A stretch of 60,145 nucleotides of DNA, from NCBI RefSeq assembly GCF_016586355.1, contig NZ_BLYI01000030.1:1-60145 (forward strand). Reading direction: 5' to 3'. The translations under genes were made by a program, and so were the position numbers. Shown piece after piece: positions 1,500 to 20,299 of the stretch. This DNA is from Anaerostipes butyraticus (GTDB taxonomy: Bacteria; Bacillota; Clostridia; Lachnospirales; Lachnospiraceae). The notes beneath the pieces are model-generated. The model saw only the letters and a list, made by a program, of their open reading frames with translations. It did no database searches and was not told the DNA's origin. Within the stretch, counting starts at the first letter, position 1. Each line of letters starts with the position of its first letter.

Positions 1500-1523
1500 G
1501 GATTTAAAAGGTGAATGACGAAT

Positions 1524-2615
1524 ATGAAAACAAGACCAATTTTGACTCCCAAAAAACCGAAAGATGCATCCCGTATATTTGATACTACAGAGCCTTTGTT
1601 AAGACTTAGAAATATGGGGGATGATGAATTTGAGCGTGTAGTTGGAGAGTGGGCCTATTCTTGTTTAAGAAGTTCAAAAAAGTATAGTAATGTAGCTTTG
1701 CTGGGAGGATCTGGGGATTCTGGAAGAGATTTGGTTGCTTACATTGATTCGGATATGAAAAAATTTGATATTTATCAATGCAAGCGGTATAATAAGCCAT
1801 TGTCACCATCAGTTTATATGATTGAATTCGGGAAGTTGTGTTATTATACGTTTATAGGGGAATATAGTGTACCGCGGAAATATTATATAGTGGCAAGTAA
1901 TGGAATTGGTAATTTGCTAAGAAGTTTAATAGAGAATCCTTCAGAAATAAACCTAAAATTGATTGAGGAATGGGATGAAAAATGCGGAAAGAAAGGACAG
2001 ATTATTTCAAAAGGGATACAATTAACAGATGAACTAAAAAAGTATATTGAAGAATTCGATTTTTCGATTGTTTCAGATATATCCCCCATAACGTTGATAG
2101 AGGATTTTAGTAGCTCGGTGTGGTATAAATATCATTTTGGGGGAGGCTTAAAAAGACGTCCGAAATTTGAAAAGCCATCAGAAACATTACAGGCAGAAGA
2201 GAAGAAATTACCTTATGTTAGACAATTGCTACAGGTATATTCTAAGGAAGCAAAACAGGAATTTAAAACGCAAGAGGAACTAAAGCAGGAGCAAGGGTTC
2301 TATAGACATTTTTTACGACAGAGAGAAGGTTTTTTCTCGGCACAATCATTAAAAAGATTTGTAAGAGACGAATTAGTTGATGAAGAAAGCTATGAACAAT
2401 TAAAAGAACAGGTAGAATATGGTGTAATGGATATATATGAGCGTGAATATGATAGCGAGTTAGAACGAGTGAAAAACACTACACAACAGGCAAATACATT
2501 ATCTATTAGTACTGATGAAATAAAAAATGTTACTATACAAGATAAGACGGGAATGTGTCACGAACTTGTAAACGAGGATCGATTAACATGGAGTGAAATA
2601 AGTGAAAATATATAA
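1524..2615 (+). CDS. ABC-3C system effector with PD-(D/E)XK nuclease domain
   Basis: 363 residues. An N-terminal restriction-endonuclease-like domain carries the Mrr-type signature GGSGDSGRDLVAY followed by DIYQCKRY, giving putative catalytic Asp69 and the QxK pair at about 85-87, with an upstream acidic EFERVV helix. The C-terminal half is helical and charged and has no recognised enzyme motif; in ABC-3C (ABC three-component) conflict systems this region couples the effector to the ATPase. The ATG at 1524 is preferred over 1515 because AAAAGGTGA ends at 1513, right against the earlier ATG. The stop overlaps the next gene by 14 bases, so the genes are probably coupled. Cleavage of invader DNA is inferred. 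Confidence 0.7.
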   Translation: MKTRPILTPKKPKDASRIFDTTEPLLRLRNMGDDEFERVVGEWAYSCLRSSKKYSNVALLGGSGDSGRDLVAYIDSDMKKFDIYQCKRYNKPLSPSVYMIEFGKLCYYTFIGEYSVPRKYYIVASNGIGNLLRSLIENPSEINLKLIEEWDEKCGKKGQIISKGIQLTDELKKYIEEFDFSIVSDISPITLIEDFSSSVWYKYHFGGGLKRRPKFEKPSETLQAEEKKLPYVRQLLQVYSKEAKQEFKTQEELKQEQGFYRHFLRQREGFFSAQSLKRFVRDELVDEESYEQLKEQVEYGVMDIYEREYDSELERVKNTTQQANTLSISTDEIKNVTIQDKTGMCHELVNEDRLTWSEISENI

Positions 2616-3060
2616 TACTAATGCAGAAATAGGGTGCAGAATATTACTATTGTTGGGAAGCGTAAAGGGACCATGTTCAGTTGAAAGGTTGAGCTATTAT
2701 GACTACTTTTCTTTACATCTTAATGATTTAATAGATGGGTGTGAGGGCCTACATCCATCAAATCCTAATCATTCGTCTGAAATCATCATAAAAAGAAAAA
2801 CTATTAAAAATGCGATAACATATTTGATAAGCAAAGGTTTGCTTACAGTTGTTTACAGTGCTTCTGGATTTAAGTACAAAAATACGAACTTGGCAGATCG
2901 TCTGATAGAATTGCTAGATAATACCTATTCATTGAAGTATAAGAAATGTGTTATAGAAGTTGACAAATTTTTCCGAGATATGCAAGATGACGATATAACA
3001 AAATATGTAAGAAACAATATCGGAAAATGGGTCGGACAATTTGAAAGTGAAAGGGACTAA
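2602..3060 (+). CDS. ABC-3C middle component-like protein
   Basis: 152 residues with a GTG start and GGAG at about 2590. The protein is small and largely helical, with a likely winged-helix-type segment (KNAITYLISKGLLTVVYSAS, about 73-92). I recognise it mainly by position and size: three-component ABC conflict systems carry a small middle component between effector and ATPase. It overlaps the effector gene and ends one base before the ATPase start. No catalytic motif is seen. Confidence 0.6.
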   Translation: MKIYNTNAEIGCRILLLLGSVKGPCSVERLSYYDYFSLHLNDLIDGCEGLHPSNPNHSSEIIIKRKTIKNAITYLISKGLLTVVYSASGFKYKNTNLADRLIELLDNTYSLKYKKCVIEVDKFFRDMQDDDITKYVRNNIGKWVGQFESERD

Positions 3061-3061
3061 A

Positions 3062-4918
3062 ATGCATAGCAGATTGATATTAAAGAAGCTAATATTGACA
3101 GGAGATGGAAAACAGGATGCTGTTATCGATTTTCATGAAGGATTAAATGTTATTGCAGGAGCCTCGGATACTGGAAAGTCATTTGCATTTGAGTGTATAA
3201 ATTTTATTTTGGGCTCAAGTGAAGTTCCATCATGTCCACCAGAAGCAAAAGGTTATCAGACTGTATTTATAGAAATTAAAGATTCATGTCAACAGGAAGT
3301 TTTTACTTTAAAACGCGATTTTTCAAAAGATAATTATAAATCAATTTTTATTTGCTATTCTGCGTACAAAGATATTAGACAGGGCACTTTTGAAAAGTTG
3401 TCAGTATCACATAAAGCAAAAAAAAGTCTATCCAAAAAGCTATTAGATATGTGTGATTGCCCATATGAAACGGTGATAGCTAAAAAGGCAAAAGGAACTA
3501 CTCAGAGTTTTACATTTAGATCGTTTATTCCTATGATAATGATGGGAGAATTGCGGGTAACAGAAAAGCATTCAGCTATTTATAGAATAAATCCAAAAGG
3601 AAGTAATTCTTCTACGGCAGAATTGACATCATTTCAAACGGTTATTTCTGGTAGAGATTATGAAAAGAAAGAGAAAGAAGTCAGTCCTGAAATTATAAAA
3701 GCAAAACTTAGAGGGCAAATTGAAGAACTAAGTTACATGATAGATGAGTTGAGAACTGAAAATGCAGGTTTAGAAGTTCAGGATAAAATAAGAGATGGAC
3801 AGGACATTGTAGAAAAAATAAAGGAAATCAACGAATTTATCGATTGTAAAAAGGAAGAAGTTAAAAAATATGAAACTGAGTATGAGCAACTTCAAAGTAA
3901 AAGCGGCGAAATAAGAAGAAAAATATTTAGATTAAATGACAATATAGATAAATTCCATTTATTGAAGAAAAATTATTTGTCTGATTTGGAAAGATTGGAA
4001 TTTATTTTTGATGCACATGATTTAACACAACAGTTGATTGATGTTGAATGTCCGATATGCCATTCCCCTATGCGGGTAGAAGACGCGGAAAGTTCGAATG
4101 ATTATTTTATTGCATTATCTAGTGAAAGGACAAAAATTCAAATCCAGATTTCAGAGTTAGATGATACGATTTTAGATCTGCAAAATGAAGTAAAGGAAAA
4201 GGAAAGGTCTCTTGAAGACATAACATTAAAGAGCGAGTTAATATCTCAGGAACTTAATGCTATATTGTTGCCGATTATTTCAGAGAAAGTTGCAGAAGTT
4301 CAAGCATTACTTGATATTCAAGAGCAGGTAAATATTGTTTTGAGAAATAGTGAAAAAGTTAAAAAATATAATGATAGAATATCTGAGTTGACAAATAAGA
4401 TAGATAATACAAAAGCAGATAAAGGAAATGAAATAGAGCCTGTTGCAGAATCGTATTTAACGGGATTGTGCAATGAGATTTCTGCTTTATTAAAAGAATG
4501 TAATTTTATTGGTAAAGAAGAAAAAGTGGAGTTTAATAATAGAACCCATGATCTTGAAATAGATGGTAAACCAAAGGCTTCTTATGGAAAAGGAGCTAGA
4601 GCGATTATTAATTCTGTTTTTTTGTTGGGGATAATGAATTATTGCTTAGAACGAGATTTGTGTCATCCAGGGGTAGTAGTTTTAGATTCACCGTTGACAA
4701 CATATAAGGAAAAGGATAAGAAAAATGGAGAAAATGACGAGAGTGTAGGACGAGGTATAAAAGAAAAATTCTATAAAATGCTTGCAGATGAAGGGACTTC
4801 AAAGCAGATAATAATTTTTGATAATGAAGAGCCGGATGAAGAAGTGAAAGGAAAGATAAATTATTTGCATTTTTCTGGGGAAGCAAAGATTGGAAGGAAA
4901 GGATTTATACCTGAATGA
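3062..4918 (+). CDS. ABC-3C ATPase, RecN/Rad50-like (DUF3732-type)
   Basis: 618 residues. Walker A is GASDTGKS (33-40). Two long coiled-coil arms (about 220-310 and 350-470) flank a zinc-hook-like ECPICHSPM at about 328-336. The C-terminal lobe holds an ABC-signature-like SYGKGARA (about 505) and Walker B VVVLDSPLTTY (about 536-546). This is the SMC/Rad50 layout and is expected to sense DNA and drive the linked nuclease. The start is the ATG at 3062, after AAAGGGA; upstream in-frame TTG codons lie inside the preceding gene. Low GC and A-rich codons set the three genes apart from the chromosome and suggest transfer. Confidence 0.75.
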   Translation: MHSRLILKKLILTGDGKQDAVIDFHEGLNVIAGASDTGKSFAFECINFILGSSEVPSCPPEAKGYQTVFIEIKDSCQQEVFTLKRDFSKDNYKSIFICYSAYKDIRQGTFEKLSVSHKAKKSLSKKLLDMCDCPYETVIAKKAKGTTQSFTFRSFIPMIMMGELRVTEKHSAIYRINPKGSNSSTAELTSFQTVISGRDYEKKEKEVSPEIIKAKLRGQIEELSYMIDELRTENAGLEVQDKIRDGQDIVEKIKEINEFIDCKKEEVKKYETEYEQLQSKSGEIRRKIFRLNDNIDKFHLLKKNYLSDLERLEFIFDAHDLTQQLIDVECPICHSPMRVEDAESSNDYFIALSSERTKIQIQISELDDTILDLQNEVKEKERSLEDITLKSELISQELNAILLPIISEKVAEVQALLDIQEQVNIVLRNSEKVKKYNDRISELTNKIDNTKADKGNEIEPVAESYLTGLCNEISALLKECNFIGKEEKVEFNNRTHDLEIDGKPKASYGKGARAIINSVFLLGIMNYCLERDLCHPGVVVLDSPLTTYKEKDKKNGENDESVGRGIKEKFYKMLADEGTSKQIIIFDNEEPDEEVKGKINYLHFSGEAKIGRKGFIPE

Positions 4919-5352: not shown

Positions 5353-7134
5353 ATGAAGAAAAAACTTCCGCTTAATCAGGAAATCTATCTGCCGGAATAT
5401 CTCAGCGGTACTGTTGCCAGATCTTTTGAGAAAGAATCAGACCAGAGAATACTGTACTGGGATTTCAGCAAAGCTCTTGATGAAAAGCTTAAAATGCAGA
5501 TAGAATTACTTCTGAACGAGATTGCAAAATCAATAAAAAATCGAGAAGAGAGACGAAACAGGTACTTGCTTCCACTCAAGTGCCTGTTTTGCTATGCTGA
5601 AAAAAGTGGATTGAAAGATATTATGAAAATGGAGAAAGCTCAGGAACAGGAATACTCTCTCATGCTTAAGCGGGAATATGGCAATCTCTGTTTGAGTCCA
5701 AAGAAATTCATCCTATTTTGCCGCAAGTTGTTGTTTCTGGAATCTAAGAATATAGACTGGGAGGCTAACGTCTGGTTTACGGAAAGACTGAATATTTCAT
5801 CAGAGAGATATAGCCGTAGTAATGCCGTGGAGAGTTTTTCCTTTTTAGACATTCATTTTCATGAGAATCGTCAGGGCCTGCAAAGATACCTGAAATATCT
5901 TTTGACAGTTACGTCTTTAAATTTAGGAACCATTCGTATTCATCATACCTATATTAAAGAATTTTTAAGATTTCTAGAAGATGGTGGAAAGGTCATAACA
6001 GATATTGATCGTAATTCTATGGAAGAATATTTAAAAAGCCTGTCCATGAGTCGTATTACAGCTTAGAGTTATAATAATAAGCTGAAGATCATTTCAACAT
6101 TTTTACATTATCTGCATGTGACAGATTATATTGGAAAGTTTTCAAATCCGATTCCACTGTATTATAAGAAGAGTTATCCGGGGGTAAATGAAATTGATAA
6201 CCTGGATCAAAAATTGAATCTGCTGATAGCTCATCTTGGAGAATTTCTGGAGAATCTGCGGATTATGAGCCTCATTCTGCTTACTACAGGTATAAAAAAG
6301 GGCCAACTGTTTCTTTTGAGAAATGCAGATTTTTACTATAAAGATGAGAATAGTTGGATGAAGGTACCGGATACCGCCAGAAGTATACCAATTCCGGATA
6401 TTTTGCATTGGCTTGTTCTGAGATATTCGGATAGAAATCACATATCTGTGGAAAACCTGCTTTTCCTGAATAACGGCAAAAGGTTTACTGCTGAAAGATT
6501 TCAAAATGCGATTATGAAACAATGCAGAAAGTCCGGTATTTTGACGGATGTGTATGTGTTTAAAGGTAATGGCTATCAAAAAGAAGTGCGTAAAGCATTT
6601 TATAGAAGTGGCACTTCGATTCAGGTAATCCGTGATTATATGGGTTATCAAACAGATGAAATTGTAAAGAAAAATATCGGATTGCTGGATGAAGAACTGG
6701 TGAAAAAGTCGATGGAGTATTATGCAAAAATGGAAAGCAGCCTGGGAGGAAATTTACTGATGGCAAAATACGATAAGATGAATGAGGCTAATCGGCAGGA
6801 AAGCAGAAGAAAAATTGAACTTGCTGTAGAAGAAATACGTAGAGCTGCTTCAGCGGGGAAAGATCTATCAGTGTCTGAAGTTTCAGAAAATACAGGACTG
6901 TCCAGAGGCTTTTTTTACAAGAACGAAGAAGTAAAGTCTGTGCTAGAGGAAGAGCGCGAAAAGATAGATCAAGGTAAATTGGCGCAGATTAAGCGGGAAG
7001 TTCGTGAGAAAAGCATGGAGAAACAGGTGGAAATCTATCAGAATGAGATAAAAAAGTTGTTGGAAGAAAATGAACGATTGAAAAAAGAGAATATAATGCT
7101 GACAAGAAAACTGGAAAGGTTGACAATGAAATAG
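5353..7134 (+). pseudogene. Tn554-like tyrosine recombinase fused to a TnpC-like domain, interrupted by a TAG
   Basis: One reading frame of 593 codons, broken by TAG at 6064-6066 (ITA-stop-SYNNKLK). Before the stop lies a core-binding region; after it, a tyrosine-recombinase catalytic-like domain followed by a C-terminal piece of about 130 residues with the helix-turn-helix LSVSEVSENTGLSRGFFYKN and a coiled coil, as in Tn554 TnpC/DUF6262 proteins. The usual R, HxxR, H and Y positions read TGIKKGQL, KEVRKAF, MGYQT and KKNIG, so only one Arg clearly remains. Both the stop and the missing residues argue against activity unless a partner recombinase acts in trans. Confidence 0.65.
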
Positions 7135-9296: not shown

Positions 9297-11294
9297 TTAT
9301 TTTGTCAGCATTTCCATGATCTTGTTGCTGCGGGCGATGAATTTTGTCATAGCTTCCGGCTCCAGCGGTTTATGGCTTAACATTGCCAGGTCATAGAGCT
9401 GCTCACAGATGATCTTGGCATTATCAGCATCTCCGTGTTCAAACAAATACTGAACCAAAGAGTTATTGGCATTTAATGTCAGAGATTCCTGAGCGCCTCC
9501 GAACATGTTCGGATCCATGCCAGGCATGCCGTACATCTTCATCATGTCCTGCATACGTCTGCTTTCCTCGGACAGCGTAATAATAGAAGAAATTTTCTCA
9601 TCCTTTAATTTTTCCACATGAACATCCAGGTTTTCTTTTCCAAGAGTTTTGCGGAATAAGTCAGTCAGAGCTTTTGTAATATCTTCCAGTTCTTTTTCGT
9701 CGGTCTTTTCTTTCAGAGCCTCTTCCACATCGGCGTCAATTCGTTTGAATTTGATATGCTGGTTCTGCTGTTCAATCTGCGTAATAAACGCGGAATCAAT
9801 GTTCTGATTTAAAATTACTGCGTCCATGCCCTGTTCTTTGAACATATTGATGTACTGGCTCTGCTGTACTTCATCTGTAATATAGTAGAGGGTTGTCACA
9901 TCGTCATCGCTGGCAGGCGCAGGCACCAGATCGCTTAAAGTAACGTATTTGTGTTCCATATTCTTGAACAGAAGATAATCTTTGATCTTTTCTGCGAATT
10001 TCTGATCACGGATAAAGCCGAACTTGATGAACGGGCTGATATCGTCCCAGTATTTTTCATAAGACTCACGGTCGTTTTTGCACATACCGGTCAGTTTATC
10101 TGCTACTTTCTTTGTGATGTAGCTGGAGATCTTCTGTACGAATCCATCGTTCTGCAGTGCGCTTCTGGATACATTCAGCGGAAGATCCGGGCAGTCGATA
10201 ACGCCTTTTAACAGCATCAGGAATTCCGGAATGACTTCTTTGATGTTGTCCGCGATAAATACCTGGTTGTTATATAATTTGATCGTTCCTTCAATGGAAT
10301 CATATTCTGTATTGATCTGCGGGAAGTAAAGGATTCCCTTTAAGTTAAACGGATAGTCCATATTCAGATGAATCCAGAACAGAGGCTCCTTAAAGTCATG
10401 GAAGACTTTGTGATAGAATGCCTTGTATTCCTCATCGGTACAGTCGTTTGGACGTTTCATCCACAACGGATGAGTGTCACTTAAAGAAACCGGCCGTTTG
10501 TTGATCTTGACCATTTCTCTTGCCGGAGAAATTTCTACGGTTTCTTTTGTACCGTCCTCTTTTTCACGTTCTTCTGTCTTAGCATCCTCATGGATGTGTT
10601 CCACAACAACGTCATCTTCCTTCAGATCTTCTTCCGGGATGGTCTCATATTCCTGTTCTTTGCCTTCTACAGACAGGAAAATTTCCGTTGGCATAAAAGA
10701 ACAGTATTTTTCGATGATTTCTCTGGCGCGGTATTCGTTGGTGAATTCCGTGCTTTCTTCATTCAGGAACAATGTAATCTCTGTTCCAACTTCAGATTTT
10801 GTACCTGTTTTCATAGTATATTCGGTACCGCCGTCACATTCCCAGTGAACCGGTTCAGCTCCTTCTTTATAAGAAAGAGTATCAATATGAACTTCATCGG
10901 CAACCATGAAGGCAGAATAGAAACCGAGACCAAAATGTCCAATGATCTGATCTCCCTCTGTCTTATCTTTATATTTTTCCAGAAATTCTGTTGCGCCGGA
11001 AAAAGCAATCTGGGTAATGTATTCTTCCACTTCATCGGCAGTCATACCAAGACCGGTATCTGTAAATTTCAGAGTTTTCTTTTCCGGATCCAGGATAACT
11101 TCTACTTTATTTTTATGACCTTCCGGATAGTTGTATTCTCCCATCATGTCCAGTTTGTTTAATTTGGTGATCGCGTCACATCCGTTGGAGATGAGCTCAC
11201 GGAAGAAGATATCATGATCGGAATACAGCCATTTTTTTATGATCGGAAAGATATTATCGCTGTTAATAGAAAGATTTCCTCGTTTTTCAGCCAT
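9297..11294 (-). CDS. htpG: Molecular chaperone HtpG (Hsp90)
   Basis: 665 residues, slightly longer than the usual 610-630. The GHKL ATPase domain shows FFRELISNGCDAITKL, TDTGLGMT and GHFGLGFYSAFMVA, the nucleotide-pocket and lid motifs of Hsp90. A charged stretch (about 240-270) leads to the middle domain with LPLNVSRSALQ (catalytic Arg loop), then a C-terminal dimerisation domain. It is a cytosolic chaperone that remodels stressed proteins. It is transcribed alone from a strong promoter with a CIRCE operator just upstream, so HrcA heat-shock control is expected. Confidence 0.96.
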   Translation of the reverse strand: MAEKRGNLSINSDNIFPIIKKWLYSDHDIFFRELISNGCDAITKLNKLDMMGEYNYPEGHKNKVEVILDPEKKTLKFTDTGLGMTADEVEEYITQIAFSGATEFLEKYKDKTEGDQIIGHFGLGFYSAFMVADEVHIDTLSYKEGAEPVHWECDGGTEYTMKTGTKSEVGTEITLFLNEESTEFTNEYRAREIIEKYCSFMPTEIFLSVEGKEQEYETIPEEDLKEDDVVVEHIHEDAKTEEREKEDGTKETVEISPAREMVKINKRPVSLSDTHPLWMKRPNDCTDEEYKAFYHKVFHDFKEPLFWIHLNMDYPFNLKGILYFPQINTEYDSIEGTIKLYNNQVFIADNIKEVIPEFLMLLKGVIDCPDLPLNVSRSALQNDGFVQKISSYITKKVADKLTGMCKNDRESYEKYWDDISPFIKFGFIRDQKFAEKIKDYLLFKNMEHKYVTLSDLVPAPASDDDVTTLYYITDEVQQSQYINMFKEQGMDAVILNQNIDSAFITQIEQQNQHIKFKRIDADVEEALKEKTDEKELEDITKALTDLFRKTLGKENLDVHVEKLKDEKISSIITLSEESRRMQDMMKMYGMPGMDPNMFGGAQESLTLNANNSLVQYLFEHGDADNAKIICEQLYDLAMLSHKPLEPEAMTKFIARSNKIMEMLTK

Positions 11295-11551: not shown

Positions 11552-12868
11552 GTGGAATTTACAGCAGAATGGCAGCCGGAAGCAAAACTTTGGGAAACAA
11601 AGAATTACGGCAGATATGATGAAGTGGATTATATCAGGACATTTCTGGGACGGGATCAGGCATACATACCGGTAAAAGATGTTTTGATTTTTGAAACCGC
11701 CAAAGGACATTACCGGGCAAATCCTTTTATGAAACAGGCGGCAGATTCCCTTCATTATAATCAGATTGAGATTATTGCATTTGACCAGGGCGGTTATGGC
11801 AGAGAAGGGGATTATAAGAAAATCCTGCGGCAGTGCGGATATCCGTATATTGAGAAAATTGCTCTTCCAGCGGCTTTTGGAAAAAAGAAGTGTGGCTTTG
11901 GATTTTTTAAGGAGATGACTGCATCTTTTGGAAAAGGTAAAAAATATGGAATCATTTCCAATAAAGCCGAGCTGTTTGCTGTGGCGAAACACGTAGACTT
12001 TCTGTTGTATACATCTCCGTCACAGTATCCGGGACGGTATTATCTGGGGAAGAAAAACGGAGAAGAAGAACAGTTTTTTGAAAATTTCATTAACGAACAG
12101 CTGCTGAATGGAACGGTGAAGGAATCCAGAGGATATCATTTCGGATATGCTTTTGAGGGAATCCTGATCTACGCATTCTGCAGCTTTTTGAAGAAAAGGA
12201 TAGAAGCAGAAGGGACAGGGCGAATCTATTTTACGGCTCCATCGAGCACTGCCTTTCAGGCATATGCGGCGCTGCATCCGGAAGAAGAAATGGAAACTCT
12301 TTATGTATGGAAGCAGACCAGGAGGGACAAAGAACTGAAAAGTTATCTGGAGAAAAGGGTAGAAGACAAGGCGGTGATCGTGGATTTTTCTCTGGATCCG
12401 GAATGGAAAGACGAGCTGGAGGCATTGTGCCGGAGGGGATGCAGGGTGTTAACCCTGTGTGATCTGTTCGGACAGGATAATATCAGAAAGTATGGAAAAA
12501 CAGTAAAAAAAGCAGTCGGTATGGCAAAAGAAAATAATTTCTCTGTAACATATTACAAAAATGGTCTTCCAGTATGGGAACAGGAGGAAGTAAGTATTCG
12601 GAAACTGCGCAACGGACAGGAAATCCAGAGAGGCATCATGGAATTTGTGATGCAGTTTGAAGAGTACCGCAGGCAGGAAAATCTTCCTGAGTTTGACTGC
12701 GGGGCAAAAGATATGCAGCTGATTGAGAAGGTCTTAAAGTATGCTTTTAACGAGGAAGAAAGAAAACGCCGGCATATGGAACCGTTCCAGGCATTGATTC
12801 AGTCCAGGACGGCGAAATGGGGCGTGCGGCTGCTAAAAAGCATGTATCGGAGGATAAGGAAAAAATGA
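11552..12868 (+). CDS. Divergent COG5610-like protein of a surface-glycan operon
   Basis: 438 residues. Nothing recognisable by simple motif, but internal comparison is informative. Residues about 196-240 (FGYAFEGILIYAFCSFLKKR, then IYFTAPSST about 30 residues later) line up with the second module of the HAD/COG5610 protein at 16777 (YGYINGGILILGYVQWI, then LFIARDG). The next strand METLYVWKQTRR matches SEYVYLSRNAA, and AVIVDFS matches AAVDTGW. The RDG of the other protein is lost. I infer a degenerate relative of that module, perhaps structural or for substrate recognition. It is the first gene of the operon and shares ATGA with the next. Confidence 0.5.
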   Translation: MEFTAEWQPEAKLWETKNYGRYDEVDYIRTFLGRDQAYIPVKDVLIFETAKGHYRANPFMKQAADSLHYNQIEIIAFDQGGYGREGDYKKILRQCGYPYIEKIALPAAFGKKKCGFGFFKEMTASFGKGKKYGIISNKAELFAVAKHVDFLLYTSPSQYPGRYYLGKKNGEEEQFFENFINEQLLNGTVKESRGYHFGYAFEGILIYAFCSFLKKRIEAEGTGRIYFTAPSSTAFQAYAALHPEEEMETLYVWKQTRRDKELKSYLEKRVEDKAVIVDFSLDPEWKDELEALCRRGCRVLTLCDLFGQDNIRKYGKTVKKAVGMAKENNFSVTYYKNGLPVWEQEEVSIRKLRNGQEIQRGIMEFVMQFEEYRRQENLPEFDCGAKDMQLIEKVLKYAFNEEERKRRHMEPFQALIQSRTAKWGVRLLKSMYRRIRKK

Positions 12869-14556
12869 TTTTATATATAGGAGCTTCGATTTATCATATT
12901 TTATGCTTCAGTCTGCACAAACTGATCTATCATCCTGAGGAAGAAGCGGTGCTGATAATCTGCGATAATATTTTTTCTAAAAGCGGGATGGAAGAGCTGA
13001 AAGCAGATATTGATAAGTCGGAAATTTTTTCCCGCACCCTGATTCTTCATTATATTGAAGGGGCTTACAGCAATCCATATGTGCTGAAAGAAACATCCCC
13101 GGCAGAAGAAATCGATCGTTATATCGCATGGAATGAACAGTGGATCGAAGAGTGGATGGAACAGAACCAGCTGGATATCAGCGAGGCTGCAGAATTTAAT
13201 ACAGCGATCGATCACAGACATTTTGGTCTGTATCTGCTGTCAAAGAAAATTCCGTATCAGTATTTTGAGGATGGAAACGGACTGCTGTCCAGAGAACGGG
13301 TGCAGATGGAATTTCATAAAAAATCCCAGTATGCTTCCTACGCAGTGACAAAACGTCTCCATGCCCTGGGAAACAGCCGTTATGTGACGAAACGGTATGC
13401 TAACTCCAGCGCGCAGGTGCCAGGATTTTACGATGAAAAAATGGAAGATTTTAATGTGATCACTTTGTTCGCCGGATTGAAAGAAGAAGATAAAAAAAGA
13501 CTTCTGAAGATGTTTCATGCCAAAAAGCTGGAACTGCCCCGGACAAAGAAGGGGCCGGTGCTTTATCTGACCCGGTATGTGAGATATCTTCAAAAACCCA
13601 CCATACAAAATCATCATTATCTTTCCGCCATGATACTGGATTTATTTGCAGAAGACCATCTGGTGGTCATTAAGCCGCATCCAAGAGATTTTTCCGGAAG
13701 ATACCGGGATCTGTTTCCGGATGCGGTTGTTCTGGACAAACATTTTCCGTCAGAGCTTCTGCCTTTCCTGTATGATGGAAAATTCCGCAAGATCATTACG
13801 ATTGGCTCTACGGCAATTGATGCTCTGGAAAAAAATACGGAGGAGATCATAAAACTGGAAGAAGGATTTGAAAACAAGCTGGATTCGGTCTTTGGATATG
13901 TGGTGGCAGTCCAGGCGGTAAAATCATTGTTTCCGGAATTGAAAAAAGAAGAAATTACAGCAGCAGGATGCTTAAGAGAACTGCTGGATCCTCTGTGCCG
14001 GGATATACTGGGATTTACGGTGCCGGAGGCAGGAAAACAAGGACATTACAAAGTGGTGGTAGCAGACGAGATACCGGACAGGATACCAGAGGCGGATTTG
14101 ATTTTGTATCTGAATACCGCCTGGGATTTCAAATTCGCAGACACAGATCCCGGTGTTTTTCAGAGACTTGCCTTTTTGGGGGTATCCGTAAAAACTGTTT
14201 CCCGAAAAAGTCTAGGGAAAGCCAGCGAGGCAGTTATCCTGGCAGAGGCCGGGGATCCGGAAATCAGAAAAGCGGCGGAGAACTTTCGGTTTCGGAAAGA
14301 GTTTCCAAGAACGGGTCTTGTGATGACTGCGGGAAATGAAACAAGACAAGAAAAAGAATATGGAAAAGTTATGGCAGAGATTTTGTGGATGAGTCATAAA
14401 ACAGGGAAAGAAAACGGAATGCTGCTTCTGCCGAAGCGCAGAAGGAAGGTATCCATGGGAGATGTGGAAGCAGTCCGTCAGCTTTGCTCTGTGTTAAAGA
14501 AGGAGGAAGAAACTGATGAAAACCATCGCATTTGTACCAATGAAATTGAAGAATGA
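12865..14556 (+). CDS. GT-B glycosyltransferase with sialyltransferase-type motifs
   Basis: 563 residues. The start is the ATG of the ATGA overlap (12865), 6-8 bases after GGAGGATAAGG, which gives the same N-terminus (MILYIGASIYHILCFSLHKL) as the paralogue at 18736. It carries the three signatures of bacterial sialyl/polysialyltransferases (GT38/GT52/GT80 style): acidic-acidic-Gly FEDGNG (about 134-139), KPHPRD (about 269-274, HP motif) and GSTAID (about 314, Ser-Thr). In those enzymes the motifs act as base and bind the CMP donor. The C-terminal 180 residues hold an extra Rossmann-like repeat of unknown role. It overlaps the cytidylyltransferase gene by 41 bases. Confidence 0.65.
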   Translation: MILYIGASIYHILCFSLHKLIYHPEEEAVLIICDNIFSKSGMEELKADIDKSEIFSRTLILHYIEGAYSNPYVLKETSPAEEIDRYIAWNEQWIEEWMEQNQLDISEAAEFNTAIDHRHFGLYLLSKKIPYQYFEDGNGLLSRERVQMEFHKKSQYASYAVTKRLHALGNSRYVTKRYANSSAQVPGFYDEKMEDFNVITLFAGLKEEDKKRLLKMFHAKKLELPRTKKGPVLYLTRYVRYLQKPTIQNHHYLSAMILDLFAEDHLVVIKPHPRDFSGRYRDLFPDAVVLDKHFPSELLPFLYDGKFRKIITIGSTAIDALEKNTEEIIKLEEGFENKLDSVFGYVVAVQAVKSLFPELKKEEITAAGCLRELLDPLCRDILGFTVPEAGKQGHYKVVVADEIPDRIPEADLILYLNTAWDFKFADTDPGVFQRLAFLGVSVKTVSRKSLGKASEAVILAEAGDPEIRKAAENFRFRKEFPRTGLVMTAGNETRQEKEYGKVMAEILWMSHKTGKENGMLLLPKRRRKVSMGDVEAVRQLCSVLKKEEETDENHRICTNEIEE

Positions 14557-15187
14557 GAGACTGCCGGGTAAAAATACGAAACCATTTACTCATGGAAAGC
14601 CTCTTTGCAAATATATCCTGGAGACACTGAAAAAGGTAAAAGAGATCGATGAAATTTATGTATATTGTTCGGATCCTGCCATCCTTCTCTATCTTCCGAA
14701 AGGAATAAAGTTTTTAAAAAGAGATCCTGCCCTGGATGGAAGTCAGGTAAAGATCAATGAGGTACTGCGGGCATTTGCAGAAGATGTGCCGGCTGATCTC
14801 TATGTCCTTGCTCATGCCACGGCGCCTTTTGTCAAGGCGGAAACGATTTCCAGAGGCGTGCAGGCGGTACAATCTGGTGAGTACGACTCCGCTCTCACTG
14901 TATTTCGTCAGCAGGATTTCTTCTGGATGGATGGAAAACCATGGAATTATGATACGAAAGAAATTCCAAGAACCCAGGATCTTAAGCCTTTGTACCGGGA
15001 AACTACCGGACTTTATATTTATGAGAGCCGGCTGATCCTGGAAGAAAACCGCAGGATCGGAGAGAAGCCGATGCTTCTTGAGGCAGACTGGAAGGAAGCG
15101 GTAGACATCAATAATCCGGAAGATTTTGTGATCGCAGATGCCATTTACAATTACTGTATGAGAAAAGGAGAAAAGGTTTATGAATAG
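14516..15187 (+). CDS. CMP-sugar (acylneuraminate-type) cytidylyltransferase
   Basis: 223 residues. The N-terminal nucleotide loop VPMKLKNERLPGKNTKPF corresponds to the CMP-NeuAc/CMP-Kdo synthetase signature (RxGSKRLPGKN), with the LPGKN part intact and the front altered. YVLAHATAPFV matches the conserved LQPTSPL strand, and a late EADWKEAVDINNPEDF carries the metal-binding DIN/D block seen in NeuA. It is predicted to couple CTP to a 2-keto acid sugar and release pyrophosphate. GGAGGAAGAAACTG precedes the ATG, and the stop overlaps the aldolase start by 8 bases. The exact sugar cannot be told from sequence. Confidence 0.8.
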   Translation: MKTIAFVPMKLKNERLPGKNTKPFTHGKPLCKYILETLKKVKEIDEIYVYCSDPAILLYLPKGIKFLKRDPALDGSQVKINEVLRAFAEDVPADLYVLAHATAPFVKAETISRGVQAVQSGEYDSALTVFRQQDFFWMDGKPWNYDTKEIPRTQDLKPLYRETTGLYIYESRLILEENRRIGEKPMLLEADWKEAVDINNPEDFVIADAIYNYCMRKGEKVYE

Positions 15188-16799
15188 AGTTTCTGTATTG
15201 GACTGTACACTGCGGGACGGCGGATATGTCAATGATTTTAATTTTTCCAGCCGGACGATCAAGACGATGATTTCCAAATTAGGAAAAGCGCATATTGACA
15301 TTATCGAATGCGGATTTATACGAGATACAGAATACGACAGGGAACGCTCTGTGTTCAGCCGGATCGAGCAGATAACGCCGTTTATTACCCCAAAGAAAAA
15401 GCATTCCATGTATGTAGGCATGATCGTTACAGGTACCATTTCCGCATCTAAAATTTCGCCAAGGACCAAAGATTCCATTGATGGAATCCGGATCACTTTC
15501 CATAAGAAAGAAATGGATGAGGCGTTTTCCCTCGGATATGCGCTGATGGATAAAGGATATGAAGTGTTTATGCAGCCAGTGGGGACAACGACTTATACGG
15601 ATGCGGAGATTCTGGCTCTGGTAGAACGAATCAATGAAATGAAGCCGTTTGCCTTTTACCTGGTGGATACATTAGGGAAATTATACGCAAAACAGCTGTT
15701 AAAGTTATTCTATCTGGTGGATGATAATCTGGATGAGGAGATTGCCATAGGATATCATTCCCATAATAATCTTCAGCTGGCTTTTTCCAATGCACAGGAA
15801 CTGATCGCAAGCTGCGGAAAAAGAAAGCTTTTTATTGACGCTTCCATCCTTGGGATGGGAAGAGGAGCAGGAAATCTCTGTACAGAGATTCTGACGCAGT
15901 ATATCAATGAAAATATAGAATACCGCTATCATACGGAACTGCTGATCGAACTGGTAGATGAGTACATCAGTCCGATTTCATACATCCATCCATGGGGATA
16001 TAATGCCGGATATTTTCTGGCGGCAACCAATAACTGCCATCCGAATTATGTGGGATTTCTGATGAATAAGCAGACCCTGAACATCAAGCGGATCTATCAG
16101 GTGCTGAAAGAGATTCCGGAGGAAGAGAGGGCTTTATACAATGAAAAGCTGATTAATTCCCTGTATCAGAAATTTCAGGAAAATGAAATTGATGATACAG
16201 AAACGATAAAAGCACTGAGAAAGATGATGGATGGAAAAGAAATCCTGATCACTGCTCCGGGAAAAAGCATACTGGATGAAAAAGAAGAGATCCAGGAGTA
16301 TATCCGGCAGGAAAACCCCTTTATTATTTGTGTCAACAGCATGCCGGATTATATTGTGCCGGATCTGCTGTTTATCAGCAATCAAAAGCGGTTTCATCAG
16401 ATAAAAAAAGAGTATGGAATGAAAAATCTTCCGTCTCCGGCAGTGGTTACTTCCAACATTGACGCAGGAAAATCCATAAAATACATTGTCAATTATTCAG
16501 AACTTACCATGTCAGATACGATGATTTCTGATAATGCCTGTCTGATGCTGTTTAATCTTTTGCAGAAGATGGGAATCGATGAGATCCATGTGGCAGGTTT
16601 TGATGGATACCATACTAATGTAGAGAGAAACTATTATGCCCGGAACCTGATCAATAACACAGACCGGGAGAAATTAAGACAGATCAACAAACATATACAA
16701 AAATATATGGAAAGGATCGAATCCCATATGCAGGTCCATTACCTGACAGAATCCATGTATGATAGGAGCAGAAACGATGTACAGTCAATTCAAGAGTAA
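15180..16799 (+). CDS. DRE-TIM aldolase (HMGL-like) with extra C-terminal domain
   Basis: 539 residues. The first 280 form a DRE-TIM metallolyase barrel: DCTLRDGGYVN (catalytic Arg-Asp), the metal ligands GYHSHNN (about 195-201) and GMGRGAGN (about 224-231). This is closest in style to 4-hydroxy-2-oxovalerate aldolases, which make or break a C-C bond to pyruvate. Residues about 345-539 (EILITAPGKSILDEKEEI onward) resemble a DUF115/MptE-like Rossmann domain. Placed between a cytidylyltransferase and a HAD protein, the enzyme may condense pyruvate with an aldehyde to build a 2-keto acid sugar. That role is inference. GGAG/AAGG lies just ahead of the ATG. Confidence 0.7.
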   Translation: MNRVSVLDCTLRDGGYVNDFNFSSRTIKTMISKLGKAHIDIIECGFIRDTEYDRERSVFSRIEQITPFITPKKKHSMYVGMIVTGTISASKISPRTKDSIDGIRITFHKKEMDEAFSLGYALMDKGYEVFMQPVGTTTYTDAEILALVERINEMKPFAFYLVDTLGKLYAKQLLKLFYLVDDNLDEEIAIGYHSHNNLQLAFSNAQELIASCGKRKLFIDASILGMGRGAGNLCTEILTQYINENIEYRYHTELLIELVDEYISPISYIHPWGYNAGYFLAATNNCHPNYVGFLMNKQTLNIKRIYQVLKEIPEEERALYNEKLINSLYQKFQENEIDDTETIKALRKMMDGKEILITAPGKSILDEKEEIQEYIRQENPFIICVNSMPDYIVPDLLFISNQKRFHQIKKEYGMKNLPSPAVVTSNIDAGKSIKYIVNYSELTMSDTMISDNACLMLFNLLQKMGIDEIHVAGFDGYHTNVERNYYARNLINNTDREKLRQINKHIQKYMERIESHMQVHYLTESMYDRSRNDVQSIQE

Positions 16800-18735
16800 A
16801 GTAAAAAATAAAATAAAGACCATAGGCAGGAAGATTCTCGGTATGGAACAAAAAAAAGAAATTGTATCTGCGGAACGATCCGGCAGAGTGAAGCCAACGG
16901 TTCTGGCCAGAAGACTTCTGGAATACGATGTGATTTCTTTTGACATTTTTGATACGCTGATCCTTCGGACCCTGTCCAAGCCTACCGATGTATTTATGTC
17001 TGTGGGACAGGAGCTGGGCATGCTGAATTACACGACTATGCGGCGTGAAATGGAACTGAGGTTAAGGGACGGGAAAGAGGCAGAGACCGGGAGCAGGGAA
17101 GTTACGTTTGAGGAAATTTATGAAGCCATGGAAAAGTACTGCGGCGTCAACGCCAAAGAAGGAATTGAAGCGGAATTCAGGGCGGAATTGAAATACTGCA
17201 TTCCAAATCCGTATATGAAAGAAGTCTTTGATCTCCTGAAAAACTATGGGAAAACGATCATTATCGTTTCGGATATGTATTTTTCAAAACAATGGATGAA
17301 AAAACTCCTGTCAGCCTGTGGATACGAAGGATATGACCGTCTGTTTGTGTCCTGTGATTATGGGTTTGGCAAGAGATCCGGAAAACTGTATCAGAAAATT
17401 TCTGAGGAATATTTAAACGGCAGGAGTGTGATCCATGTGGGAGACAATCCGACGGTAGATGTGGAAATGGCTGAAAAACAGGGATGGGTTTCTGAATTTT
17501 ATGAAGATATCCACACAAGAGGGAAAAAATACCGTCCGTCTCTGATGTCTTCCTGTATTGGAAGCGCATATCGGGCAGTGGTCAATATTAAGATGCATTC
17601 CGGGGCTTTTGAATCAGAAAAAGAAAGAGATCTTGCTTATCAGTATGGGTACATCAATGGAGGGATCCTGATCCTTGGCTATGTTCAGTGGATCCACCGT
17701 CAGGCAAAGGAAGAGCATATGGATAAAGTCCTTTTCATTGCCAGAGATGGATGGATCATGAAACAGGTTTACGATGATCTGTACGATGATATTCCATCAG
17801 AGTATGTTTATCTGTCCAGAAACGCGGCATTGAAGATGACCTGTGACTATAACCGGTATGAATTATTCCGGCAGTTCGTGGAGCGAAGAGTGGATTCAGA
17901 GAAACCATATACGATCCGGGATATCCTGGTTTCCATGGAACTTGAGAGCATTCTGCCAATGCTGGAAAAAGACGGAATTCATACAGGGGATATTGTTGAT
18001 ACAAAGGAAAAGGCAGAACAGGTGAAAGAAATGCTCCTGGACAGATGGGAACATGTCTGCGGAGTATATGAATCTTCCGCTCAGGCATTCCATCAGTATA
18101 TGAAACCGATTCTTGCAGGCTGTCATCGTGTGGCGGCAGTTGATACCGGATGGAGAGGAACCTGTCCGGCCGCCATAAAATATATGATAGAGAAAAAATG
18201 GGAGGAAGACTGCGAAGTGACCGGTATGATGATGGGATCATGCAAATATAAGTTCAACAATACGATTCCTCTGATCAAAGATGGATCGATCAGAACGTAT
18301 CTGTTTTCACCGCAGCATAATGATCATCTGGCGCGATTCCATTACAATAAAAATCTGATTCATAATACCTGTATAGAGTTCATCACATCAGCTCCGCATC
18401 CGTCTGTCACCAGTTTCCAAAAAGGAGATGATGAAAGCTATAAAATCCGGTTTGAATATCCGGAACAGGAAAATTATGAAATTACGGAAAATGTCCACCA
18501 GGGAGTACTGGATTTCGTAAAGGATTATAAAAAGTATCATGGAGACAGCCCGCTGTTTTGGGAAATTCCGGCGCTGGACGCATATTGGCCGATCCGCTTC
18601 GCGATGGAGCGGCGGTTTGAATCTGTGATCAAGAAAGCTTTCGGGGGCTATGTATATAATAAGTATGTCGGCGGACTGGAAGGCAAACGGGATATGGATA
18701 CATTCCTGGACATGTGCAGAAAGGAGGGAGTATAG
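16777..18735 (+). CDS. HAD-superfamily hydrolase, COG5610 type
   Basis: 652 residues. The start at 16777 (MYSQFKSK) has TAGGAG 9 bases ahead; the ATG at 16759 lacks one. HAD motifs are complete: FDIFDTL (about 54-60, nucleophile Asp), IVSDMY (about 164) and HVGDNPTVD (about 220-228), with a helical cap between. A second module (about 288-600) begins YGYINGGILILGYVQWI, then FIARDGW, typical of COG5610 proteins of surface-polysaccharide loci. A phosphatase role on a sugar phosphate would fit the pathway. The start overlaps the aldolase gene by 23 bases; its stop abuts the next ATG. Confidence 0.75.
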   Translation: MYSQFKSKVKNKIKTIGRKILGMEQKKEIVSAERSGRVKPTVLARRLLEYDVISFDIFDTLILRTLSKPTDVFMSVGQELGMLNYTTMRREMELRLRDGKEAETGSREVTFEEIYEAMEKYCGVNAKEGIEAEFRAELKYCIPNPYMKEVFDLLKNYGKTIIIVSDMYFSKQWMKKLLSACGYEGYDRLFVSCDYGFGKRSGKLYQKISEEYLNGRSVIHVGDNPTVDVEMAEKQGWVSEFYEDIHTRGKKYRPSLMSSCIGSAYRAVVNIKMHSGAFESEKERDLAYQYGYINGGILILGYVQWIHRQAKEEHMDKVLFIARDGWIMKQVYDDLYDDIPSEYVYLSRNAALKMTCDYNRYELFRQFVERRVDSEKPYTIRDILVSMELESILPMLEKDGIHTGDIVDTKEKAEQVKEMLLDRWEHVCGVYESSAQAFHQYMKPILAGCHRVAAVDTGWRGTCPAAIKYMIEKKWEEDCEVTGMMMGSCKYKFNNTIPLIKDGSIRTYLFSPQHNDHLARFHYNKNLIHNTCIEFITSAPHPSVTSFQKGDDESYKIRFEYPEQENYEITENVHQGVLDFVKDYKKYHGDSPLFWEIPALDAYWPIRFAMERRFESVIKKAFGGYVYNKYVGGLEGKRDMDTFLDMCRKEGV

Positions 18736-20262
18736 ATGATCTTATATTACGGAGTCACCAGCTATCATATGCTGTGCTGCATCCTTCACAAGATGACCTG
18801 TCACCCGAAAGAAGAAGCGCAGCTGTTCCTTTCCGACACCCATCCGGAGTGCGGAAAACTGACAGCCTCTATTCGAAAAAGCGGGATTTTTCAGAAAGCG
18901 GAACTTTTTCCGGATAAAGGAAGGATGCTTCCTTATAAAAAGGAATACCAGAGAAACAAGACAGAAGAAAAGCTGGATTATTTCATAGAGGATCTCTGCA
19001 AAAAGACAGAAAAAGACTTTCCATTTAATCCGGAAGAAATCACGGAGTATAATATCTGCGGAGACCAGTATGCCCTGGGAATCTGGCTGATCCGCCGCAA
19101 AAAGAATTATAATTTTTTTGAGGAGGGATGCGGCGTTTATACGAGAAAGTATCTTTTGCTGGAAAATCTGGCCAGACTCAACCCGTTTCAGTATGATATG
19201 GCGGCAAAATGTCATTGTATGGGAGATTATGAAGGAATCACAAAAAAATATATTGAATTTTCTTCTCAGGAAGGAGAATTTGACCGGGAAAATTGTGAAG
19301 ATTTTTCTGTGAAACATATACTGGCGGGAATGGAAGAACAAGAACTTGGTCTGGTAAAAGATATCTTTCAGGTGCCTGAAGTTTCTTCCATGGAAGGTTC
19401 CGATTCTGTACTTTTGCTGACGCAGCAGTTTGTAAATATGGGATTTTTAACGGTGCGGCAGGAAAAAGAACTGTATGATCTGATGCTGGATTATTTTGCG
19501 CTGGAGAGCATGCTGTATGTGAAGCCACATCCCAGTGACTGGCAGGGGCTGTATGGGGACTGGTATCCGGATGCAGTGACTCTTCCGCGTTTTATGCCAT
19601 CGGAACTGCTGCCTTACACCAGCAATGGAAAATTCAAAACAGGGATCACAGTATCTTCCACTTCGATTTTCGGACTGGAACCTTACATGGAAAATATCAT
19701 CTGTCTGGATTCTTCTCTGGAAGATCATTATGAAAATATAAACTGGTATTATGCCGTAGGGCAGATTCTGGATCAGGGGATCAGAGAAGCTGAAAGTATC
19801 CGCTATGAAGGGAAATGTCCAAGGCTTTTTAAGGCAGTGATGCCGGATATTGCGGAAGGCGGTAATCTGAAGGTTCTTGTAACCAGCCAGAGAGGAGAAA
19901 AACCAGCGGAAGATCTTGTGATCTATCTGAACGAAGAAGGAAAGAATCAGATTCCGGAATGGATGTTTGAGGAGACCGATCATCTGTGGCCTGCCGCAGT
20001 TTGTATAACCGATATGGAAAGCGGCTGGAAAGGATTTCACTACATATATATTTATTCCAGACAGCTGCAGGTCCTGGAAGCATTAAAGAAAACCGAGGTG
20101 AAAAAACAATTGAATTATTCAAAGAAAGAAGTATCAATGACTCCGGAAAAATATCAGGCTCAGTGCCGTGCTCTGGAAGGAATGCTGAATGCAGCCAATC
20201 AGAGGATCGAAGAACTGCTGAAGGAAAAAAAGGAGCTGGAACGGAAGTTAAATCAGAAATGA
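18736..20262 (+). CDS. Second GT-B glycosyltransferase with sialyltransferase-type motifs
   Basis: 508 residues; paralogue of the protein at 12865 (MILYYGVTSYHMLCCILHKM against MILYIGASIYHILCFSLHKL). Motifs recur in order: FEEGCG (about 128-133), VKPHPSDW (about 263-270) and VSSTS (about 305). The C-terminus adds a coiled coil (YQAQCRALEGMLNAANQRIE onward) that may mediate assembly or membrane association. GGAGGGAGTATAG precedes the ATG, which abuts the previous stop. Two diverged transferases suggest either two linkages or a priming and a chain-extending step. It is the last gene before the terminator. Confidence 0.65.
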   Translation: MILYYGVTSYHMLCCILHKMTCHPKEEAQLFLSDTHPECGKLTASIRKSGIFQKAELFPDKGRMLPYKKEYQRNKTEEKLDYFIEDLCKKTEKDFPFNPEEITEYNICGDQYALGIWLIRRKKNYNFFEEGCGVYTRKYLLLENLARLNPFQYDMAAKCHCMGDYEGITKKYIEFSSQEGEFDRENCEDFSVKHILAGMEEQELGLVKDIFQVPEVSSMEGSDSVLLLTQQFVNMGFLTVRQEKELYDLMLDYFALESMLYVKPHPSDWQGLYGDWYPDAVTLPRFMPSELLPYTSNGKFKTGITVSSTSIFGLEPYMENIICLDSSLEDHYENINWYYAVGQILDQGIREAESIRYEGKCPRLFKAVMPDIAEGGNLKVLVTSQRGEKPAEDLVIYLNEEGKNQIPEWMFEETDHLWPAAVCITDMESGWKGFHYIYIYSRQLQVLEALKKTEVKKQLNYSKKEVSMTPEKYQAQCRALEGMLNAANQRIEELLKEKKELERKLNQK

Positions 20263-20273
20263 AATAAAAAATT

Positions 20274-20299
20274 GAAGCGGCGGGACCGCTTCTTTTTTT
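20274..20299 (+). terminator. Terminator of the glycan operon
   Basis: GAAGCGG (20274-20280), a 5-base loop, then CCGCTTC (20286-20292) and a run of seven T. Confidence 0.9.

Follow-up and report, generated by a model that had tools for sequence, protein, structure and literature searches.

The stretch of DNA analysed here, 60,145 nucleotides of an Anaerostipes butyraticus contig (NZ_BLYI01000030.1; hereafter, the window), carries a block of six overlapping open reading frames (ORFs). Its central pair, ORF 3 and ORF 4, encodes a synthetase for cytidine monophosphate (CMP)-activated sugars and a two-domain aldolase, and it is this pair, together with the sugar that it may make, that concerns us. 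The features of the block are as follows.

11552-12868, + strand: ORF 1, 438 amino acids (aa), diverged relative of ORF 5
12817-14556, + strand: ORF 2, 579 aa, GT52-type glycosyltransferase (PF07922), putative CMP-sugar transferase
14516-15187, + strand: ORF 3, 223 aa, NeuA/KdsB-type CMP-sugar synthetase (PF02348)
15180-16799, + strand: ORF 4, 539 aa, two-domain aldolase (PF00682 and PDB 3dxi)
16173-16796, + strand: C-terminal domain of ORF 4 (residues ~332-539), ~200 aa, weak MptE-like resemblance
16759-18735, + strand: ORF 5, 658 aa, predicted HAD phosphatase and phosphoribosyl pyrophosphate (PRPP)-dependent ribofuranosyltransferase of the CrpP-CriT type (Bcs3)
18736-20262, + strand: ORF 6, 508 aa, polysialyltransferase/GT52-type glycosyltransferase (PF07388)

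Successive ORFs are spaced by -52, -41, -8, -41 and 0 bases, and the block is therefore likely to be an operon. The first-pass annotation had described six overlapping genes at this position, and all six were recovered on the + strand between 11552 and 20262; only its end point, 20299, had to be moved, as it lies 37 bases beyond the last stop codon. The gene order is kept in relatives (loci are cited by L numbers): L077 and L078 have all six genes, and L099 and L142 have all but the first. The closest aldolase relatives, among the matches listed, are those of Anaerostipes L077 (88% identity) and L078 (67%).

ORF 3 scores well above the PF02348 (CTP_transf_3) cut-off (59.4 bits against 22.6; E 5.6e-16) and matches PpNeuA in the PDB (9t4z; E 2.7e-16); it remains under the equivalog cut-offs of PseF (53.7 against 205.7) and, likewise, of the KdsB models. 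It is the sole PF02348 match in the host genome, which is rated 100% complete. Sialic acids, 3-deoxy-D-manno-oct-2-ulosonic acid (Kdo) and their kin are made by phosphoenolpyruvate (PEP)-condensing synthases of the KdsA/NeuB class, the genes of which are used to predict acidic sugars. The first-pass annotation had seen no such synthase in the operon and had named a NeuB elsewhere as the finding that would overturn its proposal, and its observation holds genome-wide. Searches with PF03102 (NeuB; one weak match) and PF00793 (DAHP/KdsA; two matches) together led to only two genes, both of which are DAHP (3-deoxy-D-arabino-heptulosonate 7-phosphate) synthases by NCBIfam models over cut-off, and a TIGR01362 search gave nothing over cut-off. 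A hidden NeuB or KdsA was thus rejected; these profile searches found neither in the host genome, and the operon was not assigned to a PEP-synthase pathway.

The N-terminal domain of ORF 4 (residues 1 to ~320) is of the DRE-TIM type (PF00682, HMGL-like; E 3.1e-20). Its leading PDB match is 3dxi, which we take to be a Bacteroides protein described as a putative aldolase (E 2e-26; E 7.3e-48 in a profile search), followed by 4-hydroxy-2-oxovalerate aldolases (1nvm, profile E 8.4e-27). Residues R12, D13, H193 and H195 of ORF 4 align with R17, D18, H200 and H202 of 1nvm, the last three of which are presumably the metal ligands of DmpG, and all four are kept in each of the 117 aldolases aligned, as expected of DRE-TIM metallolyases. 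From these alignments, the N-terminal domain is probably a metal-dependent pyruvate aldolase. In 20 members examined against Pfam, the C-terminal domain matched MptE-like in five (best E 0.015) and DUF4154 in three (best E 0.0004).

The first-pass annotation had suggested that a pyruvate aldolase could stand in for the missing synthase, and this suggestion gained comparative support from 200 genomes of the window's family, each with a different genus code. Among at least 150 synthetase genes (the 150 listed reach down to ~41 bits), the partner found within 8 kb was NeuB for 92, a two-domain aldolase for 26 and KdsA for four, with none of the three for 28. No listed synthetase had both an aldolase and NeuB or KdsA within 8 kb, and a single one did at 15 kb. 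The two-domain aldolase hence fills the KdsA/NeuB position beside the synthetase in many genomes. Taking NeuB at E 1e-20 and KdsA over cut-off (reached in five of the 200 genomes) as the definition of a PEP synthase, 114 genomes lacked one; a listed synthetase occurred in 12 of the 19 that carry a two-domain aldolase as opposed to 4 of the 95 that do not (Fisher p 1.3e-8; the test assumes independent genomes, an assumption that does not hold completely). In those 12 genomes no synthetase was listed other than the one linked to the aldolase, although some of them have weaker PF02348 matches. A general tendency of aldolases to neighbour synthetases was rejected by a control: a listed synthetase lay within 8 kb of none of 61 N-terminal-only aldolase matches, versus 26 of 46 two-domain aldolases (p 1e-12), and within 25 kb of only two of the 61.

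The arrangement is not confined to this family. When 84,980 species genomes were scanned, at least 591 pattern matches emerged, of which 580 were confirmed and the best 80 examined; these came from Bacillota, Bacteroidota, Gastranaerophilales, Akkermansia, Treponema, Fusobacterium and archaea, many as metagenome bins in which a contig may be misplaced. The 76 loci with an aldolase ORF were kept (L101, L118, L130 and L148 were dropped). A synthetase lay at most six genes away on the same strand in 48 of these, directly upstream in 42; the others had a thiamine pyrophosphate (TPP) enzyme (22), neither (seven) or both (one, L122). Of the 48 synthetase loci, 26 encode a HAD or KdsC-like phosphatase no more than two genes further on. 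Stand-alone operons of synthetase, aldolase and HAD phosphatase were seen in a bin of Clostridia (L117) and an isolate of Paenibacillus (L132), and L098 (a Thermoplasmata bin, on a short contig) has the order aldolase, HAD phosphatase, synthetase. The L117 synthetase exceeds the kdsB equivalog cut-off, and no KdsA or NeuB match was found in its genome. Such a pair without NeuB, which the first-pass annotation had proposed to look for in gene neighbourhoods, was thus encountered in the 12 family genomes above and in 23 of the 40 pair genomes searched (40 of the 48 synthetase loci), none of which showed KdsA either; those 23 genomes may be incomplete. A search of titles and abstract openings in the open-access literature, which may miss subscription papers, gave no description of the pairing among the matches listed; the one passage picked out from a paper on the Mediterraneibacter gnavus capsule was unrelated. 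The recurrence of the pair suggests that surface sugars are also built by a route not yet on record.

Two loci of the family genomes contain Kdo-type cassettes (L190:8182-10589 and L191:8425-11379). In both, the synthetase is followed by KdsA and then KdsD, with KdsC also present in L191, and KdsA occupies the slot that the aldolase takes in the ORF 3-ORF 4 arrangement. L190 additionally encodes two proteins, one resembling ORF 5 and one of the polysialyltransferase type, and a ribose-Kdo type of locus with KdsA in the slot therefore seems to exist. In an unrooted tree of 82 synthetases, which left out the long branches L138 and L218, the partners of KdsA nest twice among those of the aldolase (support 100/98 and 100/100), and the partners of NeuB form two groups of their own; in a quick tree, the long-branched aldolase partner L138 grouped with the larger NeuB set. 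It seems, therefore, that the same synthetase lineages take the product of either KdsA or the aldolase.

These shared lineages, like the L117 synthetase that exceeds the kdsB cut-off, would also be expected if the sugar were an established one, Kdo or a known nonulosonate, that the aldolase forms by joining pyruvate to arabinose 5-phosphate or some other known aldehyde; only the enzyme would then be new. We regard this as unlikely: KdsD, the arabinose-5-phosphate isomerase, is present in four of five KdsA loci (the query was taken from two of these) versus one of 73 aldolase-synthetase loci, there as a weak match, and no KdsD over cut-off was found in any of the 14 genomes searched, the window's own included. 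A dedicated isomerase thus probably does not supply arabinose 5-phosphate as the aldehyde, and the sugar may be something other than Kdo. The stand-alone operons suggest a central metabolite as the aldehyde, for which ribose 5-phosphate is our guess.

The second context of the aldolase, beside a TPP enzyme, raises another alternative. In the 200 family genomes a TPP enzyme lies near 19 of the 20 two-domain aldolases without a nearby synthetase, and across 122 two-domain aldolase loci (among them a few apparent duplicates of a single contig, such as L034 and L095) the partner is a synthetase in 73, an acetolactate synthase-like TPP enzyme in 40, both in one and neither in eight. CDP-hexose genes of the RfbF/RfbH type accompany 25 of the 40 TPP loci and 10 of the 73 synthetase loci, and a HAD or KdsC-like phosphatase 14 and 44, respectively; such locus-wide counts compare loci of unequal length, and where profiles had been built partly from the same loci the counts were repeated without those. 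A quick aldolase tree of 117 sequences, with SH-aLRT (approximate likelihood ratio test) support only, implies at least nine changes of partner type. L042, L048, L069, L136 and others have the aldolase with a TPP enzyme and often with a HAD phosphatase and RfbF/RfbH-type CDP-hexose genes, and the TPP-type loci are possibly clusters for branched-chain sugars. It is conceivable from these associations and changes of partner that the aldolase serves some other step, such as one in branched-chain sugar formation, that the synthetase uses a scavenged ulosonate, and that the two adjoin merely because they share polysaccharide loci. We consider this improbable, given the 42 of 76 loci in which the synthetase immediately precedes the aldolase, the stand-alone three-gene operons, the empty N-terminal-only control and the rarity of listed synthetases (4 of 95) in genomes without NeuB, KdsA and the two-domain aldolase. 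Since the usual donors of TPP enzymes are 2-oxo acids, both contexts fit an aldolase whose product is a 2-oxo acid.

Synthesis by the aldolase would probably still call for a phosphatase, a role that the first-pass annotation had given to the HAD/COG5610 protein, ORF 5. ORF 5 has a HAD hydrolase match (Pfam E 1.1e-10), and its residues 58-403 match Bcs3 (PDB 9h50/8a0c; E 1.2e-13) over Bcs3 residues 383-762, a stretch that spans the HAD phosphatase and runs into the ribosyltransferase; a further match is the ribofuranosyl transferase 7shg (E 1.4e-4). The HAD and RDG residues are invariant in all ten aligned rows, so that the HAD domain, its passage into CriT and the catalytic Asp of a CrpP-CriT protein are all present. 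The Bcs3 report describes a CrpP-CriT pair that moves ribofuranose 5-phosphate from PRPP and then dephosphorylates it (PMC10299916). Because of its resemblance to this phosphatase/PRPP-ribosyltransferase, ORF 5 is probably a ribofuranosyltransferase rather than a ulosonate phosphatase. The latter assignment could appeal to the intact HAD residues and to the fact that the operon has no other phosphatase, but it is very doubtful and was abandoned, as the nearest solved structures are Bcs3 and a ribofuranosyl transferase and as ORF 5-like proteins occur alongside a KdsC-like gene in L052 and L057 and a separate HAD phosphatase in L142.

Relatives of ORF 5 were found in 21 of 73 synthetase loci versus 2 of 40 TPP loci, an excess that weakens without the profile-source loci (below); ribose is therefore likely in this operon and not a rule of the aldolase-synthetase pairing. 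ORF 1 gave no match in Pfam or NCBIfam and no match of note in the PDB. Aligned with ORF 5 by hhalign (probability 98.8, E 8.5e-17), it covers ORF 5 residues 138-352 and begins past the HAD nucleophile region; by this alignment it is probably non-catalytic or re-purposed.

The two remaining proteins are candidate transferases. ORF 2 exceeds the cut-off of PF07922 (GT52; E 2.6e-11), and its paralogue ORF 6 (phmmer, 175 bits) narrowly exceeds that of PF07388 (A-2_8-polyST; E 1.1e-5, 25.6 against 23.3) and stays under that of PF07922 (E 7.3e-5); a PDB search gave no match for ORF 2 and none of note for ORF 6. The first-pass annotation had pointed to sialyltransferase-like motifs in both, and in an alignment with eight relatives the acidic pair (10 of 10 rows), H288-P289 and S331-T332 are indeed invariant, while the Gly after the acidic pair is replaced by Ala in two rows and kept in eight. 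By family cut-off and motifs, both proteins appear to be of the GT52/polysialyltransferase type. Of the 73 synthetase-type aldolase loci, 25 contain a member of their family, compared with none of the 40 TPP-type loci (19 of 67 versus 0 of 40 without the profile-source loci; p 5e-5), a distribution that agrees with the transferase role proposed earlier.

Taking these lines together, we think it likely, from the genes and their comparison, that the operon dispenses with a PEP-condensing synthase in making a 3-deoxy-2-ulosonic acid, which is CMP-activated and transferred into a ribofuranose-containing glycan. Beyond the observed families, metal-site residues, gene order, and pairing and replacement statistics, we infer the following reactions, aldehyde, sugar and glycan. 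ORF 4 would catalyse a metal-dependent aldol addition of the pyruvate enolate to an aldehyde, which is most likely a sugar phosphate drawn from central metabolism; this addition would give a 4-hydroxy-2-oxo acid (a 3-deoxy-2-ulosonate), probably phosphorylated. The phosphate would be removed by a KdsC-like or PGP-like HAD enzyme, the gene for which neighbours that of the aldolase in many other loci and is unlinked here. ORF 3 would then activate the keto acid with cytidine triphosphate, ORFs 2 and 6 would transfer the CMP-activated acid, and ORF 5 would add ribofuranose from PRPP and remove its 5-phosphate, so that the end product would be a glycan of ribofuranose and ulosonate similar to the Escherichia coli K13 type.

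The proposed route resembles the Kdo pathway (KdsD-KdsA-KdsC-KdsB) in that a KdsB/NeuA-type synthetase adjoins an enzyme that forms a C-C bond and that many relatives of the operon include a KdsC-like or other HAD phosphatase; it differs in having a DRE-TIM pyruvate aldolase rather than the PEP-dependent KdsA, and KdsD was not found in 72 of the 73 loci. With the nonulosonic acid pathways (NeuB, PseI, LegI) it shares a NeuA-type synthetase and transferases of the GT52/polysialyltransferase type, whereas NeuB was not found in the genome and no amino-sugar precursor family was among the operon's matches. ORF 4 shares its sequence family and metal ligands with DmpG/BphI and 3dxi, but has the extra C-terminal domain. 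N-acetylneuraminate lyase (NanA), a mainly degradative class I Schiff-base enzyme of another family, is likewise a pyruvate aldolase able to form a ulosonate. KrkA of E. coli K13 is reported to join a Bcs3-type ribosyltransferase to a retaining GT140 Kdo transferase and so to make a ribofuranose-Kdo polymer, and the K13 assays used Kdo and KdsB (PMC12887879). The operon similarly combines a Bcs3-type ribosyltransferase with a candidate ulosonate transferase; unlike those of KrkA, its transferases are separate and of the GT52/polyST type. Compared with Haemophilus influenzae b Bcs3 (PMC10299916), ORF 5 covers the HAD domain and the start of the ribosyltransferase, and has no match to the CDP-ribitol transferase or SH3b part.

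Several observations weigh against this proposal. At the position of DmpG His21, presumably a catalytic residue, 109 of the 117 aligned aldolases, ORF 4 among them, have Tyr and only one has His, and the mechanism of ORF 4 is therefore not identical to that of DmpG; its scores are also far under the curated 4-hydroxy-2-oxovalerate aldolase cut-offs (77.8 against 229 and 67 against 286), so that, by score and His21 equivalent, it was not classed as a DmpG/BphI aldolase. No named enzyme could be assigned to its C-terminal domain, the Pfam matches being weak and the best PDB match having E 0.029. A dedicated ulosonate phosphatase was not seen near the operon, and an unlinked KdsC, sought in the genome with one query, was rejected, as its two matches are short and fall within longer frames (880 and 692 aa) that are not KdsC. 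Without the profile-source loci, the enrichment of ORF 5 relatives is not clear (12 of 64 versus 2 of 40; p 0.07). Furthermore, 28 of the 150 listed synthetases had none of the three partners nearby, and NeuB or KdsA is present elsewhere in 14 of the 26 pair-bearing family genomes and in 17 of the 40 pair genomes searched more widely. In L122, from an uncultured bacterium, the aldolase, the synthetase, the TPP enzyme and NeuB stand in one locus.

Upstream, the operon is flanked by an Hsp90 gene on the opposite strand (9297-11294), and farther downstream are genes for QueH and carbamoyl-phosphate synthase. At 1515-4918, a gene that combines an Mrr-type nuclease with the CTD6 domain of ABC-three-component systems and, farther on, an AAA_23 ATPase gene together look like a defence-type system. 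Adjoining these, phage-integrase-like proteins at 5353-7134, one with a terminal DUF6262 domain, suggest by their resemblance a transposon or other mobile element. A plasmid search gave nine records, none with at least 80% query coverage, a phage search gave no match, and one tRNA was the sole match in an RNA-family scan.

More tentatively, and with somewhat less than even confidence, the two-domain DRE-TIM aldolases may constitute a third class of ulosonate synthase that does not depend on PEP, is spread across many phyla and makes a 3-deoxy-2-ulosonic acid other than Kdo without the need for KdsD, the product being either CMP-activated for glycans or fed to a TPP enzyme for branched CDP-sugars. 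If the proposal is correct, the aldolase would provide a pyruvate-based biocatalyst for ulosonic acids, L117 and L132 would offer a three-gene module open to assay, and many gut Bacillota and other organisms would make acidic surface sugars that prediction based on KdsA and NeuB has missed.

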